Source of the DNA: Synechococcus sp. UW69
Lineage (GTDB): Bacteria > Cyanobacteriota > Cyanobacteriia > PCC-6307 > Cyanobiaceae
Direction: 5' to 3'
Assembly (NCBI RefSeq): GCF_900474185.1
Contig: NZ_UCNW01000011.1
Span: forward strand, 62,001 to 126,000
Length of the DNA stretch: 64,000 nt
Positions 68 through 53,993 of the stretch are shown piece after piece (positions within the stretch are counted from its first letter, which is position 1; each line of letters opens with the position of its first letter). The position numbers were made by a program, and so were the translations under genes. The notes beneath the pieces are model-generated. The model made no database searches. It worked only from the letters and a program-made list of their open reading frames with translations, and had not been told where the DNA came from.

Positions 68-3000
68 GACGTCACCTCAGACAGGGCACGATCAAGAGCT
101 GCGATGCGATCAAGCGGCACGGATTCGACGATGCGGCCAGGGCCGACAGGACCCTCTGGAGAGGCACTCATCGATCCGGGCATCCCCCGCAAGAAGCAGT
201 AGACATAGCCCCCCAGATGCCGCTCGGGGGCGTAATCCGGCAGCCGCCAACGCAGATGTCGATGCAGGGCCACCAGGTAGAGGTGCGCCTGAAGGGGGTA
301 GTGGTGATGCAGCATCTGATCCTCCATCGCGTCCTGGGAGTAGTGATGCGGACCGCACAGCCCGGGTTCAACACCGGTGCGCCGCTCACCGATCCAGTTG
401 CTCTTCCAGTCGAGGACCCACCAGCGCTTGTGCTGGGGGTCCTGGAACACCAGATCGATCGACCCGGTGAGAAAGCCACGACTGTTGATCGACAACGACG
501 CCAAAGCAGGGCTGTAGGACGCACCAAAACGGGCTTTGGCATCGAAGGCAAAGGCAGCGACCAGATCGGCAGTACGCACGTGCTGAACCGGCAAATCAAA
601 GCTGAGTTCGGGCAGGCGCTGGTCCGGGCCCAGCTGATCCAGCGACAACGACCCCAACGGTCCACCCAGGGGCGTCTGAAGCACCTGATCCAAGCCCGTC
701 AACACATCGTTCTGCAGGCCTGGATCGAGGCCAGCCCGCCGTAACTCGGCGGCGATCAGCTCCAGTCGTTCGCTTGGCTCCGGCGACTCTGCTGCGGTGA
801 AGGGGAACTGTTCGAGAATCCGATGCAGGCAATCCCCCGCCGCGGCTCCACGGGGGAAGGCCGCCAAAGGCCCCGTCTCAGACCACTCTGATTCAGCAAC
901 TGCCGAGACAACTTCCTCGGCCCCTGGGTCACGATCGCGCCCATGCTCATGGAGCCGAATCTCGTCGGATGAGGCAATCCAGGCTGAGTAACTGGCACGT
1001 CCCCAACTCCGATCGATGCGCTTGGGAATCGGACCCAAGGCCAACGTCTCCGCCCGCAGCGGAGACCGCCAACGCGCCCCGCTGGGCAGGCTCTCCGCCA
1101 GGGGGGAGACGCGGATAGAAACCTCTCGCTCGACCAGGGCATCACTCAGCCGTTGATCGGTCAGGCTTTCGATCGCGTCTCCAGCCGCCTCAGCACCAAA
1201 GAGCCAGGCAGGCATGGGCGAGCCCTCCTGGCCAAAGGCTCGAGCCCAGATCAGGATGAGCTGGGATTTGGCTCGGGTCACCGCGACATAGGCCAGCCGT
1301 TCGGCCTCGGCCATGGCCTCCTGCTGCGCCTGTTGCGCCGCTTGCCAGCCCTCACCCCAGTGGACATCCACCCGAACCAGGCACTCACCAGAACGGGGAT
1401 CACGCCAGAGCGGGCCAGCAACAGCTGGGGGTGACTCCCAGAGATACGGGCAAATCACCACCGGATATTCGAGACCCTTGCTGCGGTGAACAGTGACCAC
1501 GGCGATGGCGCTGTCGGCCTGATCGCTGTGGGGCTGGCGCGCTTCCGGCACGGGCCGACTGGGATGTAACCGCTCCCGCCGCAACCAATCCGCAGCAGTG
1601 GCCACGTCCAGCCCCTGGCGGTGCATTGCTTCCTGCACCAGCCGAGCTGCCTGCTGAAGATCCCCCAACATCCGCCCCCGTTCCGACAGACCCGCCAACT
1701 GTTCCCCCTTCAGCAGGTCGGCCAGCGCTCCGAGCAGGCCCAGCCGGGGCATCAACTCGGCCAGTCCACGCAATTGCAGGGCCAGCTGATCCAACCGGTC
1801 CTGGTCCAAGCCATCTGGCGGTATGCCCATCAATCCCGAACAGGCCAGCAAGCGCAGGCGAACGTCATCGCCCGGTTCTGCCAGCGCATCGAGGAACCAC
1901 TGCAAGAGCAGGGCGGCTTCACTTTCGAGCACATCCCCCTGCGTCACCAGACGCGTAGGGAGACCACAGGCACCCAGGGCGCGCCGCAGCGCTTCAGCCT
2001 GCTGATGGCGGCTCACCAACACACACAGGTCGGCGGGGTTGAGGGTGTCCTGTTGCTGCAGTTGCTCCAGCACCATTGCAGCGAGGCGATGGGGCATCTC
2101 CTCCTCCAAGGCACTGCGGGTGGATGGCGACTCGGTGGAGATCAACTGCAGTTGCAACGCCGCGGCGTCCTGCGGTGGCGTGGCAGAGCTGCAGGGCTGC
2201 ACCGCGGGCACTGGAAGCGCAGAGCGGGGGAGACCAGGAGCCATTAACCGGTTCAACCCCTCCATCAAGGGTGCCGTCGTACGGAAGTTGTCGAGCAGGT
2301 GATCGATCCGCTCCACCTGCTGCCGGGCCGCCATGTAAGTCGCTAGATCACCGCCGCGAAAGCGGTAGATCGCCTGCTTGGGATCCCCGACCATCAGCAG
2401 CAGATGGCGTTCACCATCGCCGAAAGCCCGCTGCAAAAGGCGCCACTGCACAGGGTCGGTGTCCTGGAACTCATCCACCATCACGGCCCGGTAGCGCTGT
2501 TGCAGCGACGCAAGCCAAGCGACGTCGCCATCACCGGGATCCATCGCCGCCAACAATCCGGCAAAGGTGATCACACCGCGACGGCGGCGGCGGCGGTCCA
2601 GCTCCTGCAAGCCTCGCTCCAGCAAGTACTGCCAGGTGCGCTCCAACGGTGCATCCCAGAGCGCTGCGACGGCGGCCTGCAATCCCGGCATCACAAGGCT
2701 GGGGTCGGTTTCACCGCACTTCCGCGCGATACGGCACCAACTGGAGGGGTGGAAGTAATCCTTCAGTGGCTTCTCATGGGACGCAATCTCCAGCAGCGAG
2801 GGAACAGCCGTCTGGACACTGAGCCACTGATTGATCTGCGCACAGCGATCGCTCTTCGGCTTGGCGGAGTAGGGGGTGGTGGAACCACATCCCTGGGCTT
2901 TCCATTGTTCAGCGGCCTGGCGGAACCCGGCATCAAGGGCGGCATGGTCCCGGTGCCAGAGCGGGAGAAAGTCCTCCCAGAGTTGCGCCACCCAGCGGTC

Positions 3001-3672
3001 CAGCTGCGGTGCGAGAGAGCCGTCCAGATCGATTGCCGCTTCGCTGGCTCTGAAGCGCGGCTGCTGTTCGCCATCGAGTTGCGCTAACCCCCTGCGGAGA
3101 GCCTGCGGAGAGAGTCCACGCTGACGTAAACCCTTGAGCTGGTCCGGCGGCAGGCTCAACAGCTCCTGTTGCCAGAGGTCCTGCACCACTTCGGCCTGAA
3201 GCGCGGTGGCATCGGTGTCGAGCTGGGGCTCCATCGCAGCACCGTTGCTGAGGGCTAAACGGCGAAGACTGCGTCGGCAAAAGCCATGAATGGTGGTGAT
3301 ATCAGCCCGGTCCAGCTGCTCCAGAGCCACCAGCAAGCGGCGAATCCAAAGCTGACGCGCATCCCCTGGGTCCGTTCCCGCCAGCCAATCCTCAAGAACA
3401 GGATCTGGGGCGGAAGCATCTCGACCCTGCTCAAGTTGTTCCAGACCCTGCAACGCCTGCTGCAGGCGCTGGCCGATGCGGGAACGCAGCTCTTCAGCCG
3501 CCGCATCGGTGAACGTCACCACCAACAGACTGTCGAGAGCGTGATCGGCCTCCGTGATCAGACGGAGACAGAGATGAGCCAGGGCAAAGGTTTTGCCTGT
3601 GCCAGCACTTGCCTCGAGCAAGCGGACCCCGGGACTGAGGGGGTAAGAGTTGGCATCGAAGCGCTGAGCCAT
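64..3672 (-). CDS. recB: Exodeoxyribonuclease V beta subunit (RecB helicase-nuclease)
   Basis: 1202 residues, normal for RecB. It is the 3'-5' helicase and nuclease subunit of RecBCD, which processes double-strand ends for recombination and degrades foreign linear DNA. Visible motifs are Walker A ASAGTGKT (residues 21-28), VVTFTDAAAEELRSRI, the UvrD-type Walker B DEFQDTD near 400, the AIYRFRGGD motif, a TVHRSKGLEYPVV motif in helicase domain 2, and a C-terminal nuclease block ending in LDWKSNW. The ATG at 3672 lies just before the helicase domain and no upstream start is needed. The downstream partner recD overlaps by four bases. recC is nearby, with one small opposite-strand gene between. 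Confidence 0.95.
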   Translation of the reverse strand: MAQRFDANSYPLSPGVRLLEASAGTGKTFALAHLCLRLITEADHALDSLLVVTFTDAAAEELRSRIGQRLQQALQGLEQLEQGRDASAPDPVLEDWLAGTDPGDARQLWIRRLLVALEQLDRADITTIHGFCRRSLRRLALSNGAAMEPQLDTDATALQAEVVQDLWQQELLSLPPDQLKGLRQRGLSPQALRRGLAQLDGEQQPRFRASEAAIDLDGSLAPQLDRWVAQLWEDFLPLWHRDHAALDAGFRQAAEQWKAQGCGSTTPYSAKPKSDRCAQINQWLSVQTAVPSLLEIASHEKPLKDYFHPSSWCRIARKCGETDPSLVMPGLQAAVAALWDAPLERTWQYLLERGLQELDRRRRRRGVITFAGLLAAMDPGDGDVAWLASLQQRYRAVMVDEFQDTDPVQWRLLQRAFGDGERHLLLMVGDPKQAIYRFRGGDLATYMAARQQVERIDHLLDNFRTTAPLMEGLNRLMAPGLPRSALPVPAVQPCSSATPPQDAAALQLQLISTESPSTRSALEEEMPHRLAAMVLEQLQQQDTLNPADLCVLVSRHQQAEALRRALGACGLPTRLVTQGDVLESEAALLLQWFLDALAEPGDDVRLRLLACSGLMGIPPDGLDQDRLDQLALQLRGLAELMPRLGLLGALADLLKGEQLAGLSERGRMLGDLQQAARLVQEAMHRQGLDVATAADWLRRERLHPSRPVPEARQPHSDQADSAIAVVTVHRSKGLEYPVVICPYLWESPPAVAGPLWRDPRSGECLVRVDVHWGEGWQAAQQAQQEAMAEAERLAYVAVTRAKSQLILIWARAFGQEGSPMPAWLFGAEAAGDAIESLTDQRLSDALVEREVSIRVSPLAESLPSGARWRSPLRAETLALGPIPKRIDRSWGRASYSAWIASSDEIRLHEHGRDRDPGAEEVVSAVAESEWSETGPLAAFPRGAAAGDCLHRILEQFPFTAAESPEPSERLELIAAELRRAGLDPGLQNDVLTGLDQVLQTPLGGPLGSLSLDQLGPDQRLPELSFDLPVQHVRTADLVAAFAFDAKARFGASYSPALASLSINSRGFLTGSIDLVFQDPQHKRWWVLDWKSNWIGERRTGVEPGLCGPHHYSQDAMEDQMLHHHYPLQAHLYLVALHRHLRWRLPDYAPERHLGGYVYCFLRGMPGSMSASPEGPVGPGRIVESVPLDRIAALDRALSEVTS

Positions 3673-3734
3673 GGATGAAGTCTGATCGGCACAGACCTCA
3701 AGAGCAGTGTTAACTTCTATTAAGTAGCCGGCGA

Positions 3735-3816
3735 AAGCTGCGAACTGGACTGGGTGCTGTCACGTCCCAGAACAGAAGACGACCTGAGCGAGGGCCTGAA
3801 GAACCCTCGCTTTTTT
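3735..3816 (+). ncRNA. Possible small RNA ending in an orphan terminator
   Basis: Upstream of the terminator at 3788-3816 there is no plus-strand gene: recB on the left reads the other way. The stretch holds a hairpin CTGGG/CCCAG around 3743-3765 and then the terminator hairpin, with an AT-rich TATTAAGT-like element near 3717 that could be a -10 box. This is compatible with a short independent RNA or a leader/attenuator for the small gene starting at 3825. Weak evidence, sequence reading only. Confidence 0.3.
3788..3816 (+). terminator. Rho-independent terminator
   Basis: Perfect 7-bp stem GCGAGGG/CCCTCGC with a 9-base loop followed directly by six T. It ends 8 bases before the ATG of the gene at 3825, so it either terminates a short upstream RNA or works as an attenuator. 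Confidence 0.75.
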
Positions 3817-3824
3817 GTGGGCTT

Positions 3825-4088
3825 ATGAAGCGATACGACTCAACCCTTGAGAGAACAGGGGCTTGTGTCGATGCGGTGCCAGCAGCGAACAGGTTGGTGA
3901 AAAGCACCTGCGTTGTTGTGTCTCCTGAACGTCGTCAGAAATTGGCTCAGCTGCTCGTGAGCAAGGCCGCCGCTGTCGAAAGCATCGGCCAGGAACATCG
4001 GGCTTACTTCTTCCGACGTCAGGCAGGAGATCCCGTGGTGATATCGAATGAACGCATGGGCGAGATGTTGGACGAGCTTTTCACTTAG
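3825..4088 (+). CDS. Small hypothetical protein between recB and recC
   Basis: 87 residues, no recognised domain. The second half is charged and looks helical (SPERRQKLAQLL, ISNERMGEMLDEL). It is convergent with recC and overlaps its stop by four bases. It is the only long frame here, and its composition looks like coding sequence rather than a shadow. Function unknown. Confidence 0.55.
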   Translation: MKRYDSTLERTGACVDAVPAANRLVKSTCVVVSPERRQKLAQLLVSKAAAVESIGQEHRAYFFRRQAGDPVVISNERMGEMLDELFT

Positions 4089-7000
4089 CGAAGTTGCGCC
4101 AGGAGAGGGCCGTAAAGCAGCTGGCAAGCCTCTTGGAATCCGTCCTGATCCATCAGCTGCTCCGCGGAGATCTCCGTACCAAAGCAGAGCTGCATCACCG
4201 GGGTGGTTCCTTCCTCCTGCCAGGTCGCTCGAAATCCCAGTTCCCCGGAACCCGGTTTGCGCTGCTCTTTGGCCACCATCTGCCAGCCACTCTTCGGGGG
4301 AACCGGCCAGCACTGCACCAGGCCCTGTTGCGCCAAATCCTGAAGCTGGTGCAGCCGATCCATGGCTTCAGCCTCCGGTAACGCAGCCCAACGCAGATGC
4401 ACCTCAGCTCCGGCAACCCGTGTGCTGCGGGCCACCACCGCTGAACCACCAGCAGGAGCCAGACCCTCAGCACAAAGCAGCAGATGCAGCAACCAACCGC
4501 GCATCACGGCCGCGGCCGTAAGCATGCCGGGCTGCACCACCACCTGGGTGTCCCCGGCAAAAAGCAGGGGCGTTGGCAAGCACGCGAGGACATGGACCTC
4601 CCGCCGGCAGGGGCCGAGCGATGCCAACTGACGCTGCAGGGCCTGCCAACGCTGCTGCAGATCCTCCTGCTCCAGAGCAGCGCCAGCACCCGCAGGAAGC
4701 ACGCCCTGGCCCGCCAGCAACGCCGTCCAATCTGGAGCCGACCCAAGAATGAATTGCTCCTCAAGCTCATGGTTGAGCAGCAGATAGCGCTGCAAACCGT
4801 CCAGCTCGAGGGCTTCAAGGTCTTCCACAGCCTCAATGCCTTCACCTGGACGCAACCCCCGCGCTTGCAACCAGGCCTTCTGGGGCTGCTGCATCCAGGT
4901 CAGCAACGCTTCAGGGTCCAACGCCGAGACCGAGGTCGGAACGTCAGCGTCCCTAGCCAGCGGTTCCCGCCAAAGCGATGACCAGGCCAGCCCCAGGGAG
5001 TCCTGGGCCGATGCTGGGGCGCGATCGAGACAACGCCTGGCCTCCAGCTGGCGTCGATCACAACTAAGCGGCGCCTCGGGTCTGAAGTTTTCAGGGGACA
5101 GGGGGTTGGCCGCCGGAGTGATCACCAACCCCTCCGTGGAGGCGCTGGCCCGACGCAACTGCTCCTGCAGGACGGCAAGCCACTGTTCCACGGGCGCCGC
5201 TGGCGGCTGGGGCTCACCCGTGCGCTCCAGCCGACCGCACCAGCTGATCAAAAGATGACGCCGAGCGGACATCAAGGCCTCCAGCAGCACGTAGCGGTCC
5301 TGGTCGCTGCTACGGGGGTCCCCCAGACTCCGTTGCTGCTCCAGCAGATGGAAGCCAGGACGCCGGCTCGGGCGAGGGAAGTCAGCGCTGTCTAACCCCA
5401 TCAACACAATCACCTTGTGGGGAATCGCTCGCATCGGCTCCAGGGCGCTGATGGTGAGAGCACCACTGCGGTGACCGAAGCGGCCGCTGTCCACCGACAA
5501 CGCCTCCTGCAGCACCTCCAGCGCCACGGCAGCGTCGAGGTCCAAGGAGCAATCTTCCGCCCGCAGCCGCCACTCCTCCAGCGCCGCAGCCCAGCTCTGC
5601 AACTCGTCGGCCCAGGCTCCACCATCAGCAAACAGCTCCTCGAGCAGGGACTGCAGCAGCTGAACCCAGCCATGGCATGGCCGGGGCTGGCGCAAGCGAT
5701 CCAGCATGCGCGCCAGACGATCCAGAAGACTCCACCAACGCACCAGGTGGTCGGGGTCGAGCCCCTGCTGAAACGGTGCCGCCCCCGCTGGCGCCAGGCC
5801 CGGCTCGACCGGCAGCACCAGCCCGAGCAGCCAGCGGTCCAGACACCAGCGCAGGCTGTGCACCTCATCACTCCCGCGCTCCCGGGAATCCAGACCCCAG
5901 CGAAAACCGCTGCGTTGAAGCGTTTGGGTCATCAACACCGCGTCCTCCGCCGTGAGTCCCTGCTGGCCCTGAATAGCCGGGTTGGCCAGAAGACGTTCCA
6001 GACCCGTAGCGGTGAGGCGCGTGGCCGCTAGCTCCAACAACGTGAACATCGCCATCGACAACCCAGGACTGTTCTGCTGACTGCGGTCGGTGAGGCGCCA
6101 GGGCAAATCGATACCGATGGCAGCCGTGTCGTTGAACACAGAGCTAAGCAGCGGTGCATAGCGCTCAATCTGCGGCGTCATCACCAGCACGTCTCGCGGC
6201 GCAAGATCGGGATCGGCCGCCAGCCACTGAAGAATGCGATCACGCACCAATTGCACCTCCCGCCAAGGCCCCGGCGCTGCCTGAAACAACAGCGACTGGT
6301 CGTTGGTGAAACGGGTTAACGCGGGGATGCTTTCGGCATCCACAAGCTGCTGCTGAAGCTGATCGAGCAGGGTGGGCTGACGCTGTTCAGCAGCGGCGAT
6401 CTGCAGGGACCCCGCAAAAAGGTCACCCTCGCGTCGCTCCCCCAGCTGCGCTTCACCGGAGCCTTCCAACAACTGCTGAAATTCAGCACCCATCCGCCCG
6501 AGAACAGCCTCCAAACGAGGCGCTTCAGCCAACCAGCCACCATCGGGAGGGGAAAGCCAGTCCTCCCCAAGTGAGGCCCGCCGACTGCCGCAACGCTGCC
6601 AGAGGTCCGGGCAAGGCGTCAGCAGGTAGATCTCCACCTCCAGAAGCCCAGACAAGGCCTGAATGAGTTCAACCTGCACCGGCGCCAGAGCGCTGATGCC
6701 GAACAGCCTCAACCGCTCCGGCAGCACGGCCGGGTCGACGTCTCCTCGCCGAAGCGAATCAACAGCCTCACGCACCTGCAGGCCAAAGGGGGCGCGGGGC
6801 AGCCGTTGGGCTAGCAGTCTCCAGAGAACGGCTTGCCAGTCATCTTCTGGCCGCGGCCGTTTCCATCGCTCCAGTTGATCTGGGCGATAGAGGGCGTAAT
6901 CGTCCATGGCATCGGCGATTGATCGTGCCAGCTGCCAGCGATCCCGCGTTAACCCCGAGGTGGTTCCCTCTCGCTGGGCTAACCACACCTGAAGAGGCTG

Positions 7001-28482: not shown

Positions 28483-28842
28483 GCCTCTCAGTATCAGACG
28501 AACCCAGACAACACGATCTAGGCGTTCTAGGAGTGATGTGACGAGTGTTCGCTCGCAGTAGTAGGCAATACAAAAAGAACGTCGCTCAGTAGTTTTTCAG
28601 GGAATTGAGAAATCGCTGCAGGCCCCCCGAACTGCCCCCATATTTGGTGTCCAGATGGTGTCACCTATCACCGTCTTGGCAGCACGGGAGAGCGACCCGT
28701 TGGCTGGCAGTCAAAGCACCCTTGGCACGAGCGATTGTCAGGGGTAGCTTTCTGCGCTTTTCGCAAATTGGAAAACATTTGTGCCTTTTTAGGCGAAGGT
28801 TTGTATACCGAGGAACGTGTTTAAGCGGATACTGCATCGCTC

Positions 28843-29034
28843 GGGGAGAACTAGCTTCTCCTCGCAGTTCCGTGACCCCAAGTCCTTGCTTCGGTTGTTG
28901 ACCTTCCGACGGAGGGGTCTGTCAGTAAGTGGGGCGATCTGGAACCGTTGATCAGTGGTTAGGGAGAAGGAGGCAGCCGTAAGCCTCCCCTCCGCTACGG
29001 CAAGAAAGACCCCTGGTGGTGTCAGTCCCAGGGG
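28843..29034. other. Multi-hairpin noncoding segment
   Basis: Four perfect stems in 190 bases: GGAGAA/TTCTCC (28845-28861), GACCCC/GGGGTC (28874-28919), GGAGGC/GCCTCC (28969-28988) and CCCCTGG/CCAGGGG (29010-29034). No convincing gene overlaps it, and the wider gap 28483-29152 is otherwise empty. Could be a structured RNA of the element; the strand is not determined. Confidence 0.35.
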
Positions 29035-30061: not shown

Positions 30062-31231
30062 GACGTTTACTGCCGCAATGATGTCCGCGGTTGCATTGGG
30101 TTTGAACCGCGCGTAGCTCTTCAAATGCACCTCAATGGTGTGCCCCATTGCCTCGCAGATGTTGGCGATTGGCACGTTGGCAGCATGCATCCCCTTGGCG
30201 TAGCGGTGCCTAAATGAATAAGGCGTGAGCTGTTCACCCTGGTGCTCGGCTTCATCCCGAAGCATCATCCAGACATTGCGTCTGCGCAGGTATTGATTCA
30301 ACGCCTGCCCCCCATCGCCCTCACGGTTCAATGGCGGCAATTTCTCGCCCACCTGCAACCGAGCCTGGAGCTTCCAATCAATGGCGGAGCCATCTGCTTC
30401 ACGAAGAAGCAACGGGTGGAGTCGCCGCGGCTCTGTCTTCGCTCCCTTGGTGCCGCCCATCGACTTTTGATAGATGGTCCAGAGTTCTGCCCCGCTTACC
30501 CCGTCTTTGATCCGGAGATGTCTCAACTCCTCAGGACGCAACCCGTAGACGGCGCATAACTGGATTGCAAAGCGCCAGCGGTCATGAACTTCGCCCGCAG
30601 GCAGGTTGTCGAGCAACTGGAGTAATTGCGCATCACTGAGGGGGTATCCGATTCGCTTTGGCTTCAGGGTCTCTGGAAGCGACGCGGGGGGGCTGTAGAT
30701 CGGCTTGAGGTGCCCACGTTGCACCGCCCAGTTCAGGAAGCCATAAAGCTTCTGACGGCTCGTCTGTCGCATCCGAGAGCCTTGTTCCCATTGCTTGAGG
30801 CACTCCATCGCCAATGCCTCACCATCAACCGGTGGCTTGCCTTCAAAGCAGACACGCAGGTTCTTCAGAACAGGCAGATAGTTGTATCGCCACGTTGTAT
30901 CACCAGCGTTGGGGACGAACTCTCGATATTTCTCAAACAGCTGGTTGAAATCCAGCTTCTGATGACTGCTAGCGGTGTCAGCTTTCTGCGCTGCAGCAGC
31001 AAGGGTGATCTGACCACCGTTCCACCGCTTAAAGATCTGCTGGATACGAGGGAGGGCTGAACTAGCTCCTTCTTGAGACCAGGGGTAGATCAACATCACC
31101 GAACCATGATCTTGAACCTCAAGGCGCATCCGCCCACGGGCATTGCGTACCTTCCATCCCGCGCCACAGGAGGTGCGAACCAAATCTCGAAATGGCTTGA
31201 TCCAAGGGGCTGCATCGACGACGCGCGGCAA
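30059..31231 (-). CDS. int: Tyrosine recombinase/integrase of the element
   Basis: 390 residues. The N-terminal part (AP2-like arm-binding plus core-binding SAM-like) runs to about 200. The catalytic domain follows: box I Arg in VYGLRPEELRHL, box II SFRHRYAKGMHAANVP, AMGHTIEVHLKSYARF with the His and the nucleophile Tyr near 380. It catalyses site-specific recombination between the tRNA-Pro site and the element. It starts about 150 bases from the right att copy, pointing into the element, the classic int-att arrangement. Intact. Confidence 0.92.
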   Translation of the reverse strand: MPRVVDAAPWIKPFRDLVRTSCGAGWKVRNARGRMRLEVQDHGSVMLIYPWSQEGASSALPRIQQIFKRWNGGQITLAAAAQKADTASSHQKLDFNQLFEKYREFVPNAGDTTWRYNYLPVLKNLRVCFEGKPPVDGEALAMECLKQWEQGSRMRQTSRQKLYGFLNWAVQRGHLKPIYSPPASLPETLKPKRIGYPLSDAQLLQLLDNLPAGEVHDRWRFAIQLCAVYGLRPEELRHLRIKDGVSGAELWTIYQKSMGGTKGAKTEPRRLHPLLLREADGSAIDWKLQARLQVGEKLPPLNREGDGGQALNQYLRRRNVWMMLRDEAEHQGEQLTPYSFRHRYAKGMHAANVPIANICEAMGHTIEVHLKSYARFKPNATADIIAAVNV

Positions 31232-33004: not shown

Positions 33005-33113
33005 TGCCTAACGGACAGATACTGGACAATCCTGAACCCGCGCCAGGATCTTTTGAGCGGCGCAATCTGCTCATAAGTCAGACACGAGAAGTCTTGCAAC
33101 CGCCAAACTCACC
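33005..33113. other. Noncoding stretch leading to the structured element
   Basis: No gene seen from about 32725 to 33659 apart from short uncertain frames. The notable structure in it is listed separately at 33114-33222. Confidence 0.4.
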
Positions 33114-33222
33114 AAAGAAGGCGCATACGAAGGCACCTTCTTTCCAATGGTTTTTCCGTTAACCATTGGGCGCTGGTCACTGCACTGACTCTCTTCTGGC
33201 GATGCGGGGAGTCAGACCAGCG
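33114..33222 (+). ncRNA. Candidate structured RNA, diverged fourth copy of the 52.8-kb family
   Basis: Two simple hairpins (AAAGAAGG/CCTTCTTT at 33114-33143 and CCAATGG/CCATTGG at 33144-33169) are followed by a nested hairpin. Its outer stem is CGCTGGT/ACCAGCG (33171-33177 with 33216-33222) and its inner stem CTGACTC/GAGTCAG (33185-33191 with 33209-33215). The nested hairpin has the same layout as the three tandem units at 52.8-53.3 kb. The seventh outer pair is T-A here but A-T in the unit at 52979, a compensatory change. Expression and strand are not proven. Confidence 0.45.
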
Positions 33223-33659
33223 TTTCTTCACTTGGAGGGTTGCAACGCAGACGGCCTAACTTCTGCATCGTCGCTCCGCCTTCGATGATGGTTTCACTGC
33301 GAATCAGCGTCACACGGCCATAATCTCTAAGCAGAGCTGTCGCCTAGATGCGAGAGGGAAACCACATCGGGCGTGGTTATTCGATGGATGGATGGTTAAC
33401 AAGCTGTCGGCTATTTCTCTCCTTTTCTGGCGACTCATCAACGGCAGCTGCGTTGAATAGCAGCATTTGAGTGGAACACAGCGACAGCTACTCAGCACCG
33501 ACACCCCGGAAAGCATCAGCAGCAATCCAGAGAAGCAATAAAAAAACCCTTGGAGTGGAAACACACCAAAGGCGCTTTTTCTTCTAGCGATGACACCCAT
33601 CAGCCATGGACCAATTCAGCAATGACCCAGAAAGGATCAACAGAGCAGAAACATTGCAA

Positions 33660-48677: not shown

Positions 48678-48790
48678 GGTGCTGGATTGACTCCGTTGTA
48701 GTGCTCTGCCGAGGGAACGTCGGTGCTACAGACCACCCTGTCATCGGATGGCATCTGATCCGTCCGCTGCAATCTGCGCGTCGACGATGA

Positions 48791-49066
48791 ATGTTGTGTG
48801 GTCGACGGCGATGCACCACCGGAGCGATTCGACCACTGATTTACGTTGACGGACAAATCCGTGTCTACCGATACACCACCGAATTTCTTAAGGGGCGAAG
48901 AGGCTTGACACAAGCCAAAACCAAGGCGAATCCCAGCGCCTGGCAGGCATCACTGAAAGCAGCGATCAAAGGCTTGAAGCAACCAAAACGAGACGCAAAG
49001 AACAAAATCGCAGACGATAGGTCGACATTTTTGTCGACACATACAAAGACAAAAGTCTTCATTTAG
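48791..49066 (+). CDS. Possible small basic protein (91 aa)
   Basis: Open frame with an ATG; the part after residue 15 is coding-like (PLIYVDGQIRVYRYTTEFLK, QASLKAAIKGLKQPKRDAKN), very rich in Lys. No family. Kept at low confidence, as its N-terminus overlaps the upstream region of the PiT-like gene. Confidence 0.35.
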   Translation: MLCGRRRCTTGAIRPLIYVDGQIRVYRYTTEFLKGRRGLTQAKTKANPSAWQASLKAAIKGLKQPKRDAKNKIADDRSTFLSTHTKTKVFI

Positions 49067-49138
49067 AGAATCCATCCAATACAAAATAGGTCGGTCAGGA
49101 GCTCGACAAGCCCTTGCAATACTCTTGTAGCCCTTGAG

Positions 49139-49333
49139 ATGCTTGACGCGAGACGGACCATAGGTCTCACGACAACGAAGTGGATATCTGCACCGCAGCC
49201 TGAAAAAATACGGCTAAGAGGTTACCGACAAGACGAAATAATCCAGGAAAAGGATGATGTGGTTTCAGAAAGAATCAGACAAGTCGGACTTCCGGCCGAA
49301 TCACGAAACAAAAAAATCCCCCCATCTCACTGA
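49139..49333 (+). CDS. Possible small protein (64 aa), uncertain
   Basis: Open frame with an ATG and charged composition (RGYRQDEIIQEKDDVVSERI). It ends inside the isiA terminator, which speaks against it. Low confidence. Confidence 0.25.
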   Translation: MLDARRTIGLTTTKWISAPQPEKIRLRGYRQDEIIQEKDDVVSERIRQVGLPAESRNKKIPPSH

Positions 49334-49342
49334 GATGAGGGG
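49318..49342 (-). terminator. Terminator of isiA
   Basis: On the minus strand, CCCCTCATCTCA and TGAGATGGGGGG pair with one mismatch and a very small loop, followed by a run of seven T. It lies 22 bases after the isiA stop. Very strong. Confidence 0.9.
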
Positions 49343-49364
49343 TACATCAGAAACGGCAGATCAA

Positions 49365-50402
49365 TCAGGCGCTGATCTTGGAATTCCCCATGTTGTCAAG
49401 CGCCTCAGAAACGCGCTTGAAGTTAAAGCCCATGCCGCGCAAGGCATGCCAAAAATGCCCCTGCAGGAAGAAGAATGCAAGGTAGAAGTGCGTATTGGCC
49501 AGCCAAGCCCGGGCTGAGTGGGCACCACCTTCAAGAGTAGTTGCGTCGCTGAAGTAGGGAGAGAAGGCGAAATTCAATTTCAATGGATCGCCATACAGCT
49601 CAACGGGATAAATTGTTGTGTTTTGAGCACACCAAATGGTGGTCACAAATCCCATCAGAGCTATACCTGCAAGCGAGTAAGACAAAATTGACTCGCCGTT
49701 GTAGATCAAGACCTTTTTGAAGGGACCGAAAGGGCTGGAGATGATATGCCAAACACCACCAATCGTGAGAATGAAGGCCAAAACAGCATGGCCACCCATC
49801 ACGTCCTCAAGACTGCTGATGGAAAGAAAATTAGCCTGATAACCCCACACCATGCCGAGGTCAATGTTTGGTTCCACCCGTCGAACAGCTCCGATGGCGC
49901 TGTCGTAAATTCCATGGCGCTTTGCCCATTCAACGAAGGCGATGACTCCGAGGCCGAGAAAAATCAGGTGATGACCCAGGATGAAAGTGAGCTTTTTGCC
50001 ATCACTCCATTCAAAATGAAACTTTTGGGCGCGGCCCTCAGCTTCTGAAAGGTCTTTGGGAGCTCGAAGCGTATGCCAGATTCCAGCTGCTCCAAGTACA
50101 GCAGATGAAACCAGATGGAATGCTGCGATCGCGATGAGGGGTTGCTGGTCAATGATTACAGCACCTTCTCCTACGCCGAAGCCAAGGCCGGCGAGATGTG
50201 GAATCAAAATCAGCCCTTGTTCTCCCATTGGCAGTGTTCCGTCATAACGGGCCAACTCAAACAAGGTGAAGGCACCAGCCCAAAACATGATCAAGCCTGC
50301 ATGGGCTGCATGGGCTGCAATAAAAGAGCCGCTGCGTTTAGCCACGCCTGAGTTTCCAGCCCACCAGTCATAACTGACTGATGAACTTCCATAAGACTGC
50401 AT
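49365..50402 (-). CDS. isiA: Iron-stress-induced chlorophyll-binding protein IsiA (CP43')
   Basis: 345 residues from the ATG at 50402 (MQSYGSSSVSYDWWAGNSGV); a TTG two codons up is less likely. Six membrane helices of the CP43/Pcb family, with chlorophyll-ligand His in FIAAHAAHAGLIMFWAGAF, AIAAFHLVSSAVLGAAGIWH, FILGHHLIFLGLGVIAFVEW and MGGHAVLAFILTIGGVWHII. It lacks the large lumenal loop of true CP43 (usual for IsiA/Pcb). IsiA forms antenna rings around photosystem I when iron is short. No isiB follows. See the candidate Fur site upstream. Confidence 0.93.
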   Translation of the reverse strand: MQSYGSSSVSYDWWAGNSGVAKRSGSFIAAHAAHAGLIMFWAGAFTLFELARYDGTLPMGEQGLILIPHLAGLGFGVGEGAVIIDQQPLIAIAAFHLVSSAVLGAAGIWHTLRAPKDLSEAEGRAQKFHFEWSDGKKLTFILGHHLIFLGLGVIAFVEWAKRHGIYDSAIGAVRRVEPNIDLGMVWGYQANFLSISSLEDVMGGHAVLAFILTIGGVWHIISSPFGPFKKVLIYNGESILSYSLAGIALMGFVTTIWCAQNTTIYPVELYGDPLKLNFAFSPYFSDATTLEGGAHSARAWLANTHFYLAFFFLQGHFWHALRGMGFNFKRVSEALDNMGNSKISA

Positions 50403-50502
50403 TTTCAAAAAAATGTGGCATTCGCAACTTAAGAATTGACCCGATCCAATTCGCCTTATTTTTACATTACTTTTTAGGGTTAGATCTTATTTAACCAGAA
50501 AA

Positions 50503-50521
50503 AGAATCATTTGCACATATT
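50503..50521 (-). promoter_or_regulatory. Candidate Fur site upstream of isiA
   Basis: On the minus strand the region reads AATATGTGCAAATGATTCTT, a partial match to the Fur consensus (AATGAT core). It lies about 100 bases upstream of isiA in an AT-rich promoter region. Fur control of isiA is established in other cyanobacteria; this particular site is an inference with a weak match. Confidence 0.3.
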
Positions 50522-50708
50522 AAACCTTGACCGCATCAATGGAGACAACAGGAAAGTCTAATTGTAGCAAGCAGTGGATCAATCAAGAACATGCTGGATC
50601 GTGCTAGCTGCAAAAATCCACCGGCATCCACAACAAAGCACAAAATCAATTGAGAGCATTCGAAGTATCAAATGAATGCGCAGGAATAGAAGAACAGTCT
50701 TTAGATTT

Positions 50709-50743
50709 CGCCTGAGCCTGCAGGGGTTTTGCAGGCTCAGGCG
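50709..50743. repeat. Perfect 14-bp inverted repeat
   Basis: CGCCTGAGCCTGCA / TGCAGGCTCAGGCG with a 7-base loop, GC-rich, in the 750-base gap between isiA and the next gene (50403-51155). No run of T follows on either strand. Nothing else of note was found in this gap apart from the isiA promoter region. Confidence 0.75.
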
Positions 50744-51155
50744 AGCCATGGTTCATCCACCCATGGCTTGTCTTTTAAATACAGAATAAAAAAGAGATCT
50801 ACCCCTCGAAATTATTGACGAGGAGTAAATCACTTATGTTTTTGCCGAACCCCGTCCAAGGGCGACCTAACTATTATCAAGACTTGACAGCACAGCCACG
50901 TAATTAACGCATCAAGAGGGTGTTAAATCTAAAACGTTGATCGAGACAATTGATCGAAAGGAAGAGCGACACCTTTAGTGATGCCCATCCAGAAGGCAAT
51001 GCATATGCGATGACTTCGAGCCATCCTTACCACCAGATTGAAGAATATGGGCAATTCCACCAACGTTCATATCAAAGCCAAAAAGAGGCATCAAAACAAT
51101 AGAACAATATTTTGACTATTATTTTTTGCTAGTGAGACCTAGCAAAACATCAGCA

Positions 51156-51536
51156 TTACGAATTACTGGTGGAGTGTGGATTATAGGGATCATGCCAAAC
51201 GGTGGGACGCAACACTCGACGCCGCTCAGTAACGCATCGAACTGTGGTCTGATGGGCTTGTGCAATAGCATCAATAAGACCAATCGGCCATTCAGTTCCA
51301 CAACGCATCTCTGCTTCTAAAACTGATGCATCAAGGTTGGTGAGACGAGTTGTCTTACGGGACATCAGAGAGCGGGGCCAGAGTGGGAAAGACTCATGCA
51401 GGCGAGTGATTAGCGCAAAAAGCAACCCAATCAGCACCGACATTAATACTGTTTTTAGTGCACGTCTGACTGACCCTTGAACCTGGAGGGAAGAAGGGCC
51501 AGACGACGCCAATGAATTCGACAGCAGCGAATCCAT
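51156..51536 (-). CDS. Membrane-anchored hypothetical protein
   Basis: 126 residues from MDSLLSNSLASSGPSSLQVQ. A single membrane helix (KTVLMSVLIGLLFALITRL) near 30-50 is followed by a soluble domain: RKTTRLTNLDASVLEAEMRC, GTEWPIGLIDAIAQAHQTTV, HDPYNPHS at the end. A longer open frame to 51659 has Cys-rich, non-conserved sequence. Function unknown. Confidence 0.5.
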   Translation of the reverse strand: MDSLLSNSLASSGPSSLQVQGSVRRALKTVLMSVLIGLLFALITRLHESFPLWPRSLMSRKTTRLTNLDASVLEAEMRCGTEWPIGLIDAIAQAHQTTVRCVTERRRVLRPTVWHDPYNPHSTSNS

Positions 51537-51962
51537 TGAAGGAACAGCTCCGGCTGGAATGAACTGTTCAAACAAATATTCGCTGGCCCCCTGGAAAGAT
51601 GTGCTTCCAATGCCGCTACAGCGAGATTCCTTTGAGCAATGACAACGTGACCAATGCAACCCCAGACTGAGGGATCAACTCTCTCGATCTTCCATGAATC
51701 AATGGTGGTGGAGTGGCAAGGCTTGAGAGCGGTGTGACAAACCACAAGTAGGTTCTCAGGCTGGTACCCCTGGAATCCACAAGTCATTCTCGGCTAGCGC
51801 CTAAACATGAAGCCTGACTGGCTGGTCAGCCAAGAACATGATAGACGAGTCAGTGCCAAACCGAAGCAACAACAGTTCCCTCACAATGCGCTTCAGTGAC
51901 TGCCATTAGCTTCACCCAACCATATCCACCGATGCCACAATCCCTTTTGGGTTGAGTCAAAA

Positions 51963-52160
51963 TCAGTCAATCTTGAGTCTTTGCGATTCATTTTCAAGCC
52001 GCTCTTTCACCAACTCCGCAAAATCACAATAGCTTATATCTTCTGTCTGCTTATCTCTCATGATCTCCTGAGCCTCCTGCATTAAATAGTCATAGGTAGT
52101 CTTATCAGTGGTTCGGTTTGCCAAGTCAATGATATGGGCAAATGCTTCGATGTTTGTCAT
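51963..52160 (-). CDS. Small acidic helical protein (65 aa)
   Basis: 65 residues, MTNIEAFAHIIDLANRTTDK, YDYLMQEAQEIMRDKQTEDI and FAELVKERLENESQRLK. Strongly helical, AT-rich codons unlike the flanking core genes. Function unknown. Confidence 0.55.
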   Translation of the reverse strand: MTNIEAFAHIIDLANRTTDKTTYDYLMQEAQEIMRDKQTEDISYCDFAELVKERLENESQRLKID

Positions 52161-52536
52161 GACTAGAATGCAGTTGCCTAGAAATTAGCCTGATTGCTGC
52201 TCAAGGGTCGTCTTAAATTCTACCAATGACCAATCATATTGATACGCAAAAATATTCAAACACCTAAGAGCTGATCAATTAATAATTCGCCAATCATTGA
52301 CAATGAGCATTGCCATGGTATTCACTTAGAACCAAAAGAGAAGAGGCACGCTGGCATGAATCGAATCCACTATCCCCTCATCGCCAATTGTGCTCATGGG
52401 AGCTCATCAGCGATACCTAGACAAAGATACATCAGGAAGATAAAACTGCTTATAAGCGTGCATCTTCCTATCTCACGTTAGAGCTTTTGAATAATTCAAT
52501 TACTCCAAAACCAGCACAGATAAACTCTTGCTCTTA
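52161..52536. other. Gap without a supported gene
   Basis: About 375 AT-rich bases between the 65-aa gene and rpmG. No convincing gene, and no terminator for rpmG was recognised. Confidence 0.4.
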
Positions 52537-52737
52537 TTACTTGATTTCACGATGCAATGTCATTCTGTTGAGCTGCGGGCAGAATTTCATGAGCTCAAGC
52601 CTATCGGGAGTATTTCTCCGGTTTTTTGTAGTCGTATAACGGGATACACCTGGCGAGCGTTTTTCGGAAGTTGCAGCTGTCCTGCACTCTGTACATTCAA
52701 GAGTGACAACAATTCGAACACCTTTGCTCTTAGCCAT
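52537..52737 (-). CDS. rpmG: 50S ribosomal protein L33 (isolated copy)
   Basis: 66 residues that fit cyanobacterial L33: [55 protein letters not shown]. The first zinc pair (CTEC) is present; the second pair has only one Cys (CPQLN). L33 binds at the ribosomal E-site region. The gene is not next to rpsR, its usual neighbour in cyanobacteria, and sits in an accessory region, so it may be a second, variant copy. The tandem repeat array begins 30 bases upstream on the other strand. Confidence 0.85.
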
Positions 52738-52766
52738 GAAAATAAAATTGCAATCAAAACAAAATT

Positions 52767-53290
52767 GGCTGGACTGACTCTCCGTCGCTCATGAAGAAGA
52801 GTCAGCTGTAACCCCAGCTTGATGACCCGGATAAGTCATCGAATTGAAGGTGCCTCGCGAGAACCTTCAAATTTCATCTTGCCTCCGGCTCACGCAGGCG
52901 TTGCATAAAAATGAGAAGTTGGCATCACTCAAATGAAACCAGGTCTCGTTTCAAAGCTTCCGAAGACAAATGCGGTAACGCTGGACTGACTCTCCGTCGC
53001 TCATGAAGAAGAGTCAGTTCTGCTCCAGCGCCCGATGGCTCGCCAGAATCATCGGGTGAAGAGGCGCCGTCAAGCTGCCCTTCAAAGCAACGATGACCTT
53101 GAAAAGTGGCAATTACCGTTCCGATGAAGCAGTGACTTTGACCAAATGAGACGGGAGCAAGTTGCAAGACGACTCATCAGGGTGAGATAACGCTGGACCG
53201 ACTCCCCCTACGACGAAGAAGTCAGTTGGTGTACCAGCGCCCGATGACACGATCAATCATCGATTTGGATGCTTCTCCAAGCGTCCACTA
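52767..53290 (+). ncRNA. Three tandem structured units (candidate RNA family)
   Basis: Units start at 52768, 52979 and 53191, about 212 bases apart. Each has an outer stem (GCTGG/CCAGC in unit 1, CGCTGGA/TCCAGCG in unit 2, CGCTGG/CCAGCG in unit 3). An inner stem follows (CTGACTCT/AGAGTCAG in units 1 and 2, GACT/AGTC in unit 3). Next comes a second hairpin (GATGAC/GTCATC, CCCGATG/CATCGGG, CGATGA/TCATCG) and a third (GAAGGT/ACCTTC, GAAG/CTTC with an extension, GGATGC/GCGTCC). G-T pairs in units 1 and 3 favour the plus strand as the RNA. No convincing gene overlaps. Expression is not known. Confidence 0.5.
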
Positions 53291-53480
53291 CGAATATCTC
53301 TCAGTGAAATGTTCGATGGCGTTCCGATGAGTCAACGACATTGTTCAAATGAGCCAAAGCCCTGTGACGATGAATTCAATACGTCTGCTGGTTTCAAGAA
53401 GCAGTCTGTATTGCTCAACAATCTCGCTGAAAACCGAGTTGACCCGTCAAGAGTCGATTTTTGATTAAGGCCGCAAAAAG

Positions 53481-53993
53481 TCAGTTCACCACCTTCAGAG
53501 TGCGAATTCCCGAGGCCTTAACCCAACTTGCGAGTGCATCGATGTCAGCCCTCTTTGGAATGCAGATGCACCCTGTGCCGGGGTAACAGCGGTGGATTCC
53601 CAGAGCACTGCGAGTGGTGTCGAAGCGAGGGGTCAGGTCAAACCAAAGATCGTTACCCCAAGGTTCGGGACGTCCCAAGCTGTACTCGCCGGCGGGTAAG
53701 GGGGCAGCATTGCCGGGACTCCAGCGGCGATCAGCGGTTTGGCGCCCGGCAACACCACTGGCTGCTGGCCAACTGGCCAGGAGTCGAGAGCCTCGATGCA
53801 GCTCAACCTTCCAGATGCGGTTGCCGTCAGGGAACCGCTCAGCAGTTCGGCGGGTACTGAGCTGCAGTGCCCCTCCCTGCAGCAAGGCTGTCGTGGGCCC
53901 CTGTTGCCCCAGTAGATCAGGAGCCGCCACAGCAACGGAGCCCACAAGCACCAAAGGCAGCAGGAGTGCGTGGCGCAGCATCACGATCCGCAT
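53481..53993 (-). CDS. Secreted L,D-transpeptidase-like protein
   Basis: 170 residues from the ATG at 53993 (or 53981): signal peptide RIVMLRHALLLPLVLVGSVA ending VAAPDLLG. WKVELHRGSRLLASWPAASG, LPAGEYSLGRPEPWGNDLWF, GIHRCYPGTGCICIPKRADI then ALASWVKASG follow the YkuD layout, with the His (GIH) and the Cys of the SxGC-like GTGC. It would act on peptidoglycan in the periplasm. The catalytic Arg after Cys is replaced (CIC), so activity is uncertain. Confidence 0.65.
   Translation of the reverse strand: MRIVMLRHALLLPLVLVGSVAVAAPDLLGQQGPTTALLQGGALQLSTRRTAERFPDGNRIWKVELHRGSRLLASWPAASGVAGRQTADRRWSPGNAAPLPAGEYSLGRPEPWGNDLWFDLTPRFDTTRSALGIHRCYPGTGCICIPKRADIDALASWVKASGIRTLKVVN

Follow-up and report, generated by a model that had tools for sequence, protein, structure and literature searches.

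Three diverged copies of a repeat stand side by side in the 64,000-nucleotide stretch of Synechococcus DNA analysed here (the window), and they raise the question of whether the locus encodes a structured RNA, on which strand that RNA would be made and what it would do.

The array and its family

A sequence-only reading had placed three tandem units of about 212 bases, each carrying the same succession of hairpins, at positions 52768, 52979 and 53191. This was confirmed: three diverged units carrying these hairpins follow one another in the region 52767-53290, starting at 52768, 52978/9 and 53190/1 at a spacing of 211-212 bases. The C-A mismatch described for the inner stem of unit 3 was present as well, and the stretch shared identically by units 1 and 2, given as 36 bases, was found to measure 38. 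The limit of 53290, however, proved too narrow, as did the setting: the conserved unit extends to 53353, the whole array spans 52764-53353 and two further copies lie in the window (Table 1). The window units are 166-178 nt long in the minus-strand covariance model R2.

Table 1. Features of the window and of related loci, with the search result on which each assignment rests
Feature	Position	Strand	Support
Cyano-2 RNA (RF01702), window	28678..28880	+	Rfam
Solitary unit	33048..33225	+	R2 126.7 bits; unit in the alignment of the model
Inserted block (antenna gene of IsiA/Pcb type, small genes, rpmG2, array)	48955..53480 (ends approximate)		Flank comparison
Chlorophyll-binding antenna protein, IsiA/Pcb type, in the inserted block	49365..50408	-	TIGR03041 504.5 bits
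Divergent fourth unit, same block as the array	51460..51636	-	R2 39.5 bits, E 2.8e-9; R1 28.7 bits
rpmG2, second ribosomal protein L33 gene	52537..52737	-	Pfam PF00471 E 5.6e-22
Unit 1 (nearest rpmG2)	52764..52937	-	R2 106.0 bits; unit in the alignment of the model
Unit 2	52976..53150	-	R2 119.5 bits; unit in the alignment of the model
Unit 3 (in a leader, the first to be transcribed)	53188..53353	-	R2 105.3 bits; unit in the alignment of the model
Cyano-2 RNA, locus L061	2714..2914		Rfam
Cyano-2 RNA, locus L044	7814..8018		Rfam
Cyano-2 RNA, locus L089	100..314		Rfam

The divergent fourth unit sits upstream of a small hypothetical ORF (~51156-51450, minus) that had no Pfam or NCBIfam match, and no recognised gene was found directly downstream of the solitary unit. 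Tandem Repeats Finder reported no array in the array region. With an E cut-off of 0.1, matches to the same region, tandem as well as dispersed, were obtained in 15 of the 34 genomes of the genus. The weakest of them probably reflect chance; the strong ones include G023 (E 8e-128, 519 nt at 80% identity) and G015 (E 1.3e-49). On their RNA strand the three units gave folding-energy z scores of -1.8 to -2.7, as compared to -0.9 to -3.5 on the other strand, and folding energy is by itself weak evidence for structure in the array.

A covariance model (R1) was built from an alignment of 53 units (A2), as the sequence-only reading had suggested, and recovered a family. Units were detected in 21 of the 34 genomes of the window's genus at 1-24 copies each, with 10 copies in the window's own genome and none in the remaining 13. 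Genomes that had contributed no training sequence were among them (for example G008, G013, G022 and G033), and together with the strong matches in relatives this means that the repetition of the array is not due to chance. Across the taxonomic family, R1 matched 17 of 300 genomes and R2 matched 21 of 400, in both cases within the window's genus, one of 59 genera in the latter search; since both searches used stricter filters, distant relatives may have been missed. An exact-pattern search of 257 Gb of genome contigs returned 15 stretches, 10 from Synechococcus and five from unrelated bacteria, the latter being about what we estimate such a pattern to yield by chance. Two exact patterns sought in viral contigs gave zero matches, and a search of phage records returned nothing.

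The search against Rfam that had been suggested along with the model was carried out with Rfam 15 on positions 52400-53600, and no family matched at E values up to 5, including Cyano-1, Cyano-2, glnA and Downstream-peptide. At gathering score only the Cyano-2 RNA of Table 1 and two tRNAs were found in the whole window. The RNA was not found in the parts of the literature on picocyanobacterial non-coding RNAs that were covered, where Yfr103 and Cyano-2 come nearest; coverage was partial and an earlier description is possible. The units thus apparently constitute an uncatalogued, multicopy family of structured RNAs in marine Synechococcus. Some units are accompanied by an additional copy of the nested terminal hairpin (L034 6642-6997, L061 3001-3354, L073, L078 and L084), which in these five loci stands ~141-147 nt from the next unit.

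Covariation and the strand of the RNA

Base pairing was evaluated in a minus-strand alignment of 54 units (A6), in which 28 named pairs gave 95.1% paired cells, and in the plus-strand alignment A2, in which 29 named pairs gave 87.9%. Double changes, altering both sides of a pair, were observed at 14 of the 28 named pairs of A6. They amounted to 98 cells as compared to 35.1 +/- 6.6 in shuffled alignments, with 0 of 500 shuffles reaching 98, and controls in which the partner was slid paired just 29-48% of cells. These counts, like the wobble counts below, are drawn from related copies and are not independent events. The covariation is strong and the structure of the unit is under selection, in agreement with what had been proposed from the sequence.

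The accompanying reading of the plus strand as the RNA strand did not stand. On that strand A-C mismatches outnumbered G-U pairs 99:37 in A2 and 248:101 in A3, an alignment of 142 matches, despite A3 having been fitted to the plus-strand model. By helix, the A-C excess in A3 was observed in three of four helices, the fourth being even at 44:44. An A-C mismatch on the plus strand is a G-U wobble on the minus strand, and the excess therefore points to a minus-strand RNA. Counted on the minus strand, G-U pairs numbered 86 and A-C mismatches 20; of the 25 informative pair columns, 21 show this asymmetry (p 0.0009, without correction for relatedness).

RNAalifold gave consensus energies of -16.7 kcal/mol on A6 (minus) and -1.0 kcal/mol on A2 (plus), which are different alignments, and recovered two of the helices in A6 unaided. 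Folded as full units, the minus strand was the more stable in 89 of 131 cases, as it also was for 69.5% of 200 random window segments; for the core alone it was more stable in 116 of 131, a figure that carries no control of core length. A comparison of energies between strands is consequently not decisive for the folding strand. The pairing, the wobble asymmetry and the near-constant, same-strand offsets to genes described below place the RNA on the minus strand, and probes or reporters directed at the plus strand would miss it.

Units upstream of small genes

Read along the minus strand, the order in the window is unit 3, unit 2, unit 1 and rpmG2, whose start codon lies 26 nt past the edge of unit 1. 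A second L33 gene, intact or damaged, was observed 3' of an array of 3-7 units in eight genomes, the damaged copies being those of G028 and G029. In locus L042 of G020 (~2440-2480) the array is followed by an apparently decayed rpmG2, in which a stop comes after the start and first residues. The rpmG2 product shares 75% identity with the main L33 encoded in the same genome and 83-85% with that of other species, G001, G003 and G011 among them. It has lost its second CxxC pair (CPQL), whereas the main L33 keeps both (CTEC, CPHC); seven of the eight array-linked copies were readable at this position, six with CPQL and one with SPQL.

Gene offsets were surveyed for 82 gene copies of eight families in loci fetched because they hold units. 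In 48 copies a same-strand unit lay no more than 200 nt upstream, and in two the unit in that position was on the opposite strand, counts that are not independent since the loci were picked for having units and many are orthologous. The distance from unit edge to start codon was near-constant within gene families and differed between them. On the RNA strand it was 26-30 nt for rpmG2 (8 of 8 copies), 22-30 nt for the GEELV (GEELVGLAL) family (11 of 12), 14-15 nt for the small TELLEVV family (6 of 8; a family left without a Pfam name), 36 or 88-89 nt for MDPLV, a 28-residue ORF (8 of 9), and 60-86 nt for the small MKRSLK family, which had no Pfam match (4 of 4). Fewer copies were involved for DUF3104 (PF11302; 54-65 nt, 6 of 14), prokaryotic metallothionein (PF02069; 91-104 nt, 3 of 14) and HLIP, a high-light-inducible-type protein barely above the cut-off for PF00504 (48 nt, 2 of 13), both HLIP-linked units being weak at 32 and 39 bits. 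Units were absent at 11 of 14 metallothionein, 11 of 13 HLIP and 8 of 14 DUF3104 copies, and the coupling is thus not obligatory.

From the side of the units, 200 nt of downstream sequence held a listed gene for 48 of 142, another unit for 41 and neither for 53; among the 132 units of at least 40 bits the corresponding numbers were 46, 40 and 46. A third of the units accordingly stand in front of a listed gene. In longer arrays small genes such as TELLEVV lie between some of the units. Allowing at most 170 nt from one unit to the next, the longest run comprised five (L043, G015).

From these observations we infer that the unit is probably a cis-acting 5' leader, riboswitch-like, which singly or in tandem controls a small gene and rides genomic islands. 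The unit is a structured element of ~175-230 nt on the minus strand. The conserved motifs CUCAUUUG ... UCAUCUG lie near its 5' end, and with them it comprises a variable hairpin, a GGAG/CUCC hairpin, a CCAAUGG/CCAUUGG hairpin and the terminal nested hairpin CGCUGG...CUGACUCC...GGAGUCAG...CCAGCG. Transcribed ahead of a short gene, it would fold just upstream of the start of that gene, and one or several tandem copies would control expression, most likely in that a ligand or factor would change the terminal hairpin and thereby affect ribosome entry or the passage of RNA polymerase. The leader modules would travel with genomic islands. At several genes, 14-30 nt separate the end of the terminal nested hairpin from the start codon, which is close enough for the hairpin to influence ribosome entry; for families at offsets of 36-104 nt such an effect would be less direct. 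Counting against the proposal, a sigma-70 promoter scan of positions 52400-53700 returned 0 sites, the offsets differ from one gene family to another and 53 of 142 units lack a listed gene or further unit downstream.

Tandem riboswitches usually occur as pairs, and runs of five exceed that. It is conceivable, and we put it forward tentatively, that the units represent a new riboswitch class that senses metal status or, given HLIP, light or oxidative stress, is mobile in islands and is stacked to as many as five copies before one gene. An L33 lacking its zinc site and a metallothionein invite a metal hypothesis, which does not account for HLIP and the unknown genes.

The units could instead be minus-strand small RNAs that act in trans, either cut from longer precursors or self-terminated, with their proximity to genes incidental or part of a dual function. 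The 53 units with neither a listed gene nor a further unit within 200 nt downstream leave room for a trans role. By eye, a hairpin and U-run follow some units, as at the solitary units of L074, L086 and L089, where they resemble an sRNA terminator; a script flagged seven such cases, five of them on runs at least 65 nt away. For Cyano-2, which shares islands with the units, Table 1 of PMC2864571 answers the question of cis-regulation with 'probably not'. We nevertheless consider a trans-acting role unlikely, on account of the near-constant start offsets in several unrelated gene families and of an opposite-strand placement at just two of 82 gene copies. Inspection of the alignment by eye likewise revealed no conserved promoter-like sequence before the unit.

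Genomic islands and known RNA families

In all ten relatives fetched, 64-472 nt separate the flanks of the block that holds the array, and the block of ~4.5 kb in the window is therefore an insertion. The antenna gene and the rpmG2-array region were found elsewhere in eight genomes (G023, G002, G004, G024, G028, G029, G015 and G020); in our reading the 5' flank of the array diverges between the window's genome and G023 soon past the last unit. Cassette ends were resolved in locus L061 of G028 (2194-4843), where two tandem, integrase-less cassettes of ~1.3 kb have been added to the 3' end of a protein gene, two units and a Cyano-2 RNA being found inside a 1.3-kb cassette of this genome. Each cassette ends in CTGCTGGAGGAGCA, a repeated 14-bp sequence preceded by a conserved arm, and in the cassette-free genomes G024, G002, G033 and G013 the flanks meet with an overlap of 16-17 bp. 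In this island, then, the cassettes end in a repeat of 14-17 bp that lies apart from the units, and the units are internal cargo.

An alternative is that the units act as DNA, whether as a folded, attC-like recombination site, an attachment site for an island integrase or a selfish palindromic repeat. Integron attC arrays are structured repeats in a single orientation that lie near recombinases and between small genes; the units of the listed arrays likewise share one orientation, their copies are dispersed and patchy, and tyrosine recombinase genes or remnants lie within ~1.1 kb of a unit at six loci at least. A DNA-level role is nonetheless improbable, as the 86:20 asymmetry between G-U and A-C favours selection on a single RNA strand and the cassette junctions of L061 fall outside the units. 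Matches to an integrase profile, which at times adjoin a unit, were moreover obtained in 34 of 34 genomes including the 13 without units, the profile having been seeded by four integrases chosen for lying near units. The integrase/att reading was pursued and then dropped once the wobble asymmetry emerged. Mutually related tyrosine recombinases were observed near several units, in the window (~30065-31219, minus) and in loci L044, L071, L073 and L074.

Among catalogued RNAs, Cyano-2 resembles the units in being a multicopy, patchily distributed structured RNA of the same genus and the same islands. It was found in 22 of 34 genomes, in 19 above the family cut-off, and of its 62 matches 13 are by our reading no more than 5 kb from a unit, one of them at 87 nt in G028. 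It is, however, a separate family with Rfam matches of its own in L061, L044 and L089 and none in the units of the window. A short sequence at ~48788-48955 of the window recurs across many genomes of the genus, and some of its occurrences score weakly for Cyano-2 (30-37 bits, below cut-off); this repeat is possibly another multicopy RNA. The glnA RNA (RF01739) and the Downstream-peptide RNA (RF01704) are likewise candidate 5'-leader RNAs of cyanobacteria according to PMC2864571, whereas the units have no Rfam match at E 5, are confined to one genus, form runs of up to five and precede other genes.

That the units are a form of the abundant non-coding RNA Yfr103, or of another known RNA family, is very improbable. 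Yfr103 is also a multi-paralogue structured RNA of marine picocyanobacteria, with seven paralogues in the related organism CC9605, but in PMC5069720 it is described as 290-328 nt long and as present in Prochlorococcus, WH7803 and RCC307, a far wider range than that of the shorter units, which in the search with stricter filters were confined to a single genus (21 of 400 genomes); the two are set apart here by length and range. Other known families are opposed by the absence of any Rfam match at E 5. A decayed protein-coding repeat, named beforehand as a refuting outcome and suggested by some ORFs that run through units, is refuted to near certainty by core lengths that spread evenly modulo 3 (32/32/32 in the 96 units scoring 70 bits or more) and by the finding that any single frame is open in just 3-21 of 132 units.

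Marine Synechococcus are major primary producers, and their islands hold many small unknown genes. If the proposal of a leader is correct, a shared, covarying RNA would tie a number of these small island genes to one signal and offer a handle on it, and arrays that place as many as five copies ahead of a single gene would provide a natural test of the stacking of RNA switches.
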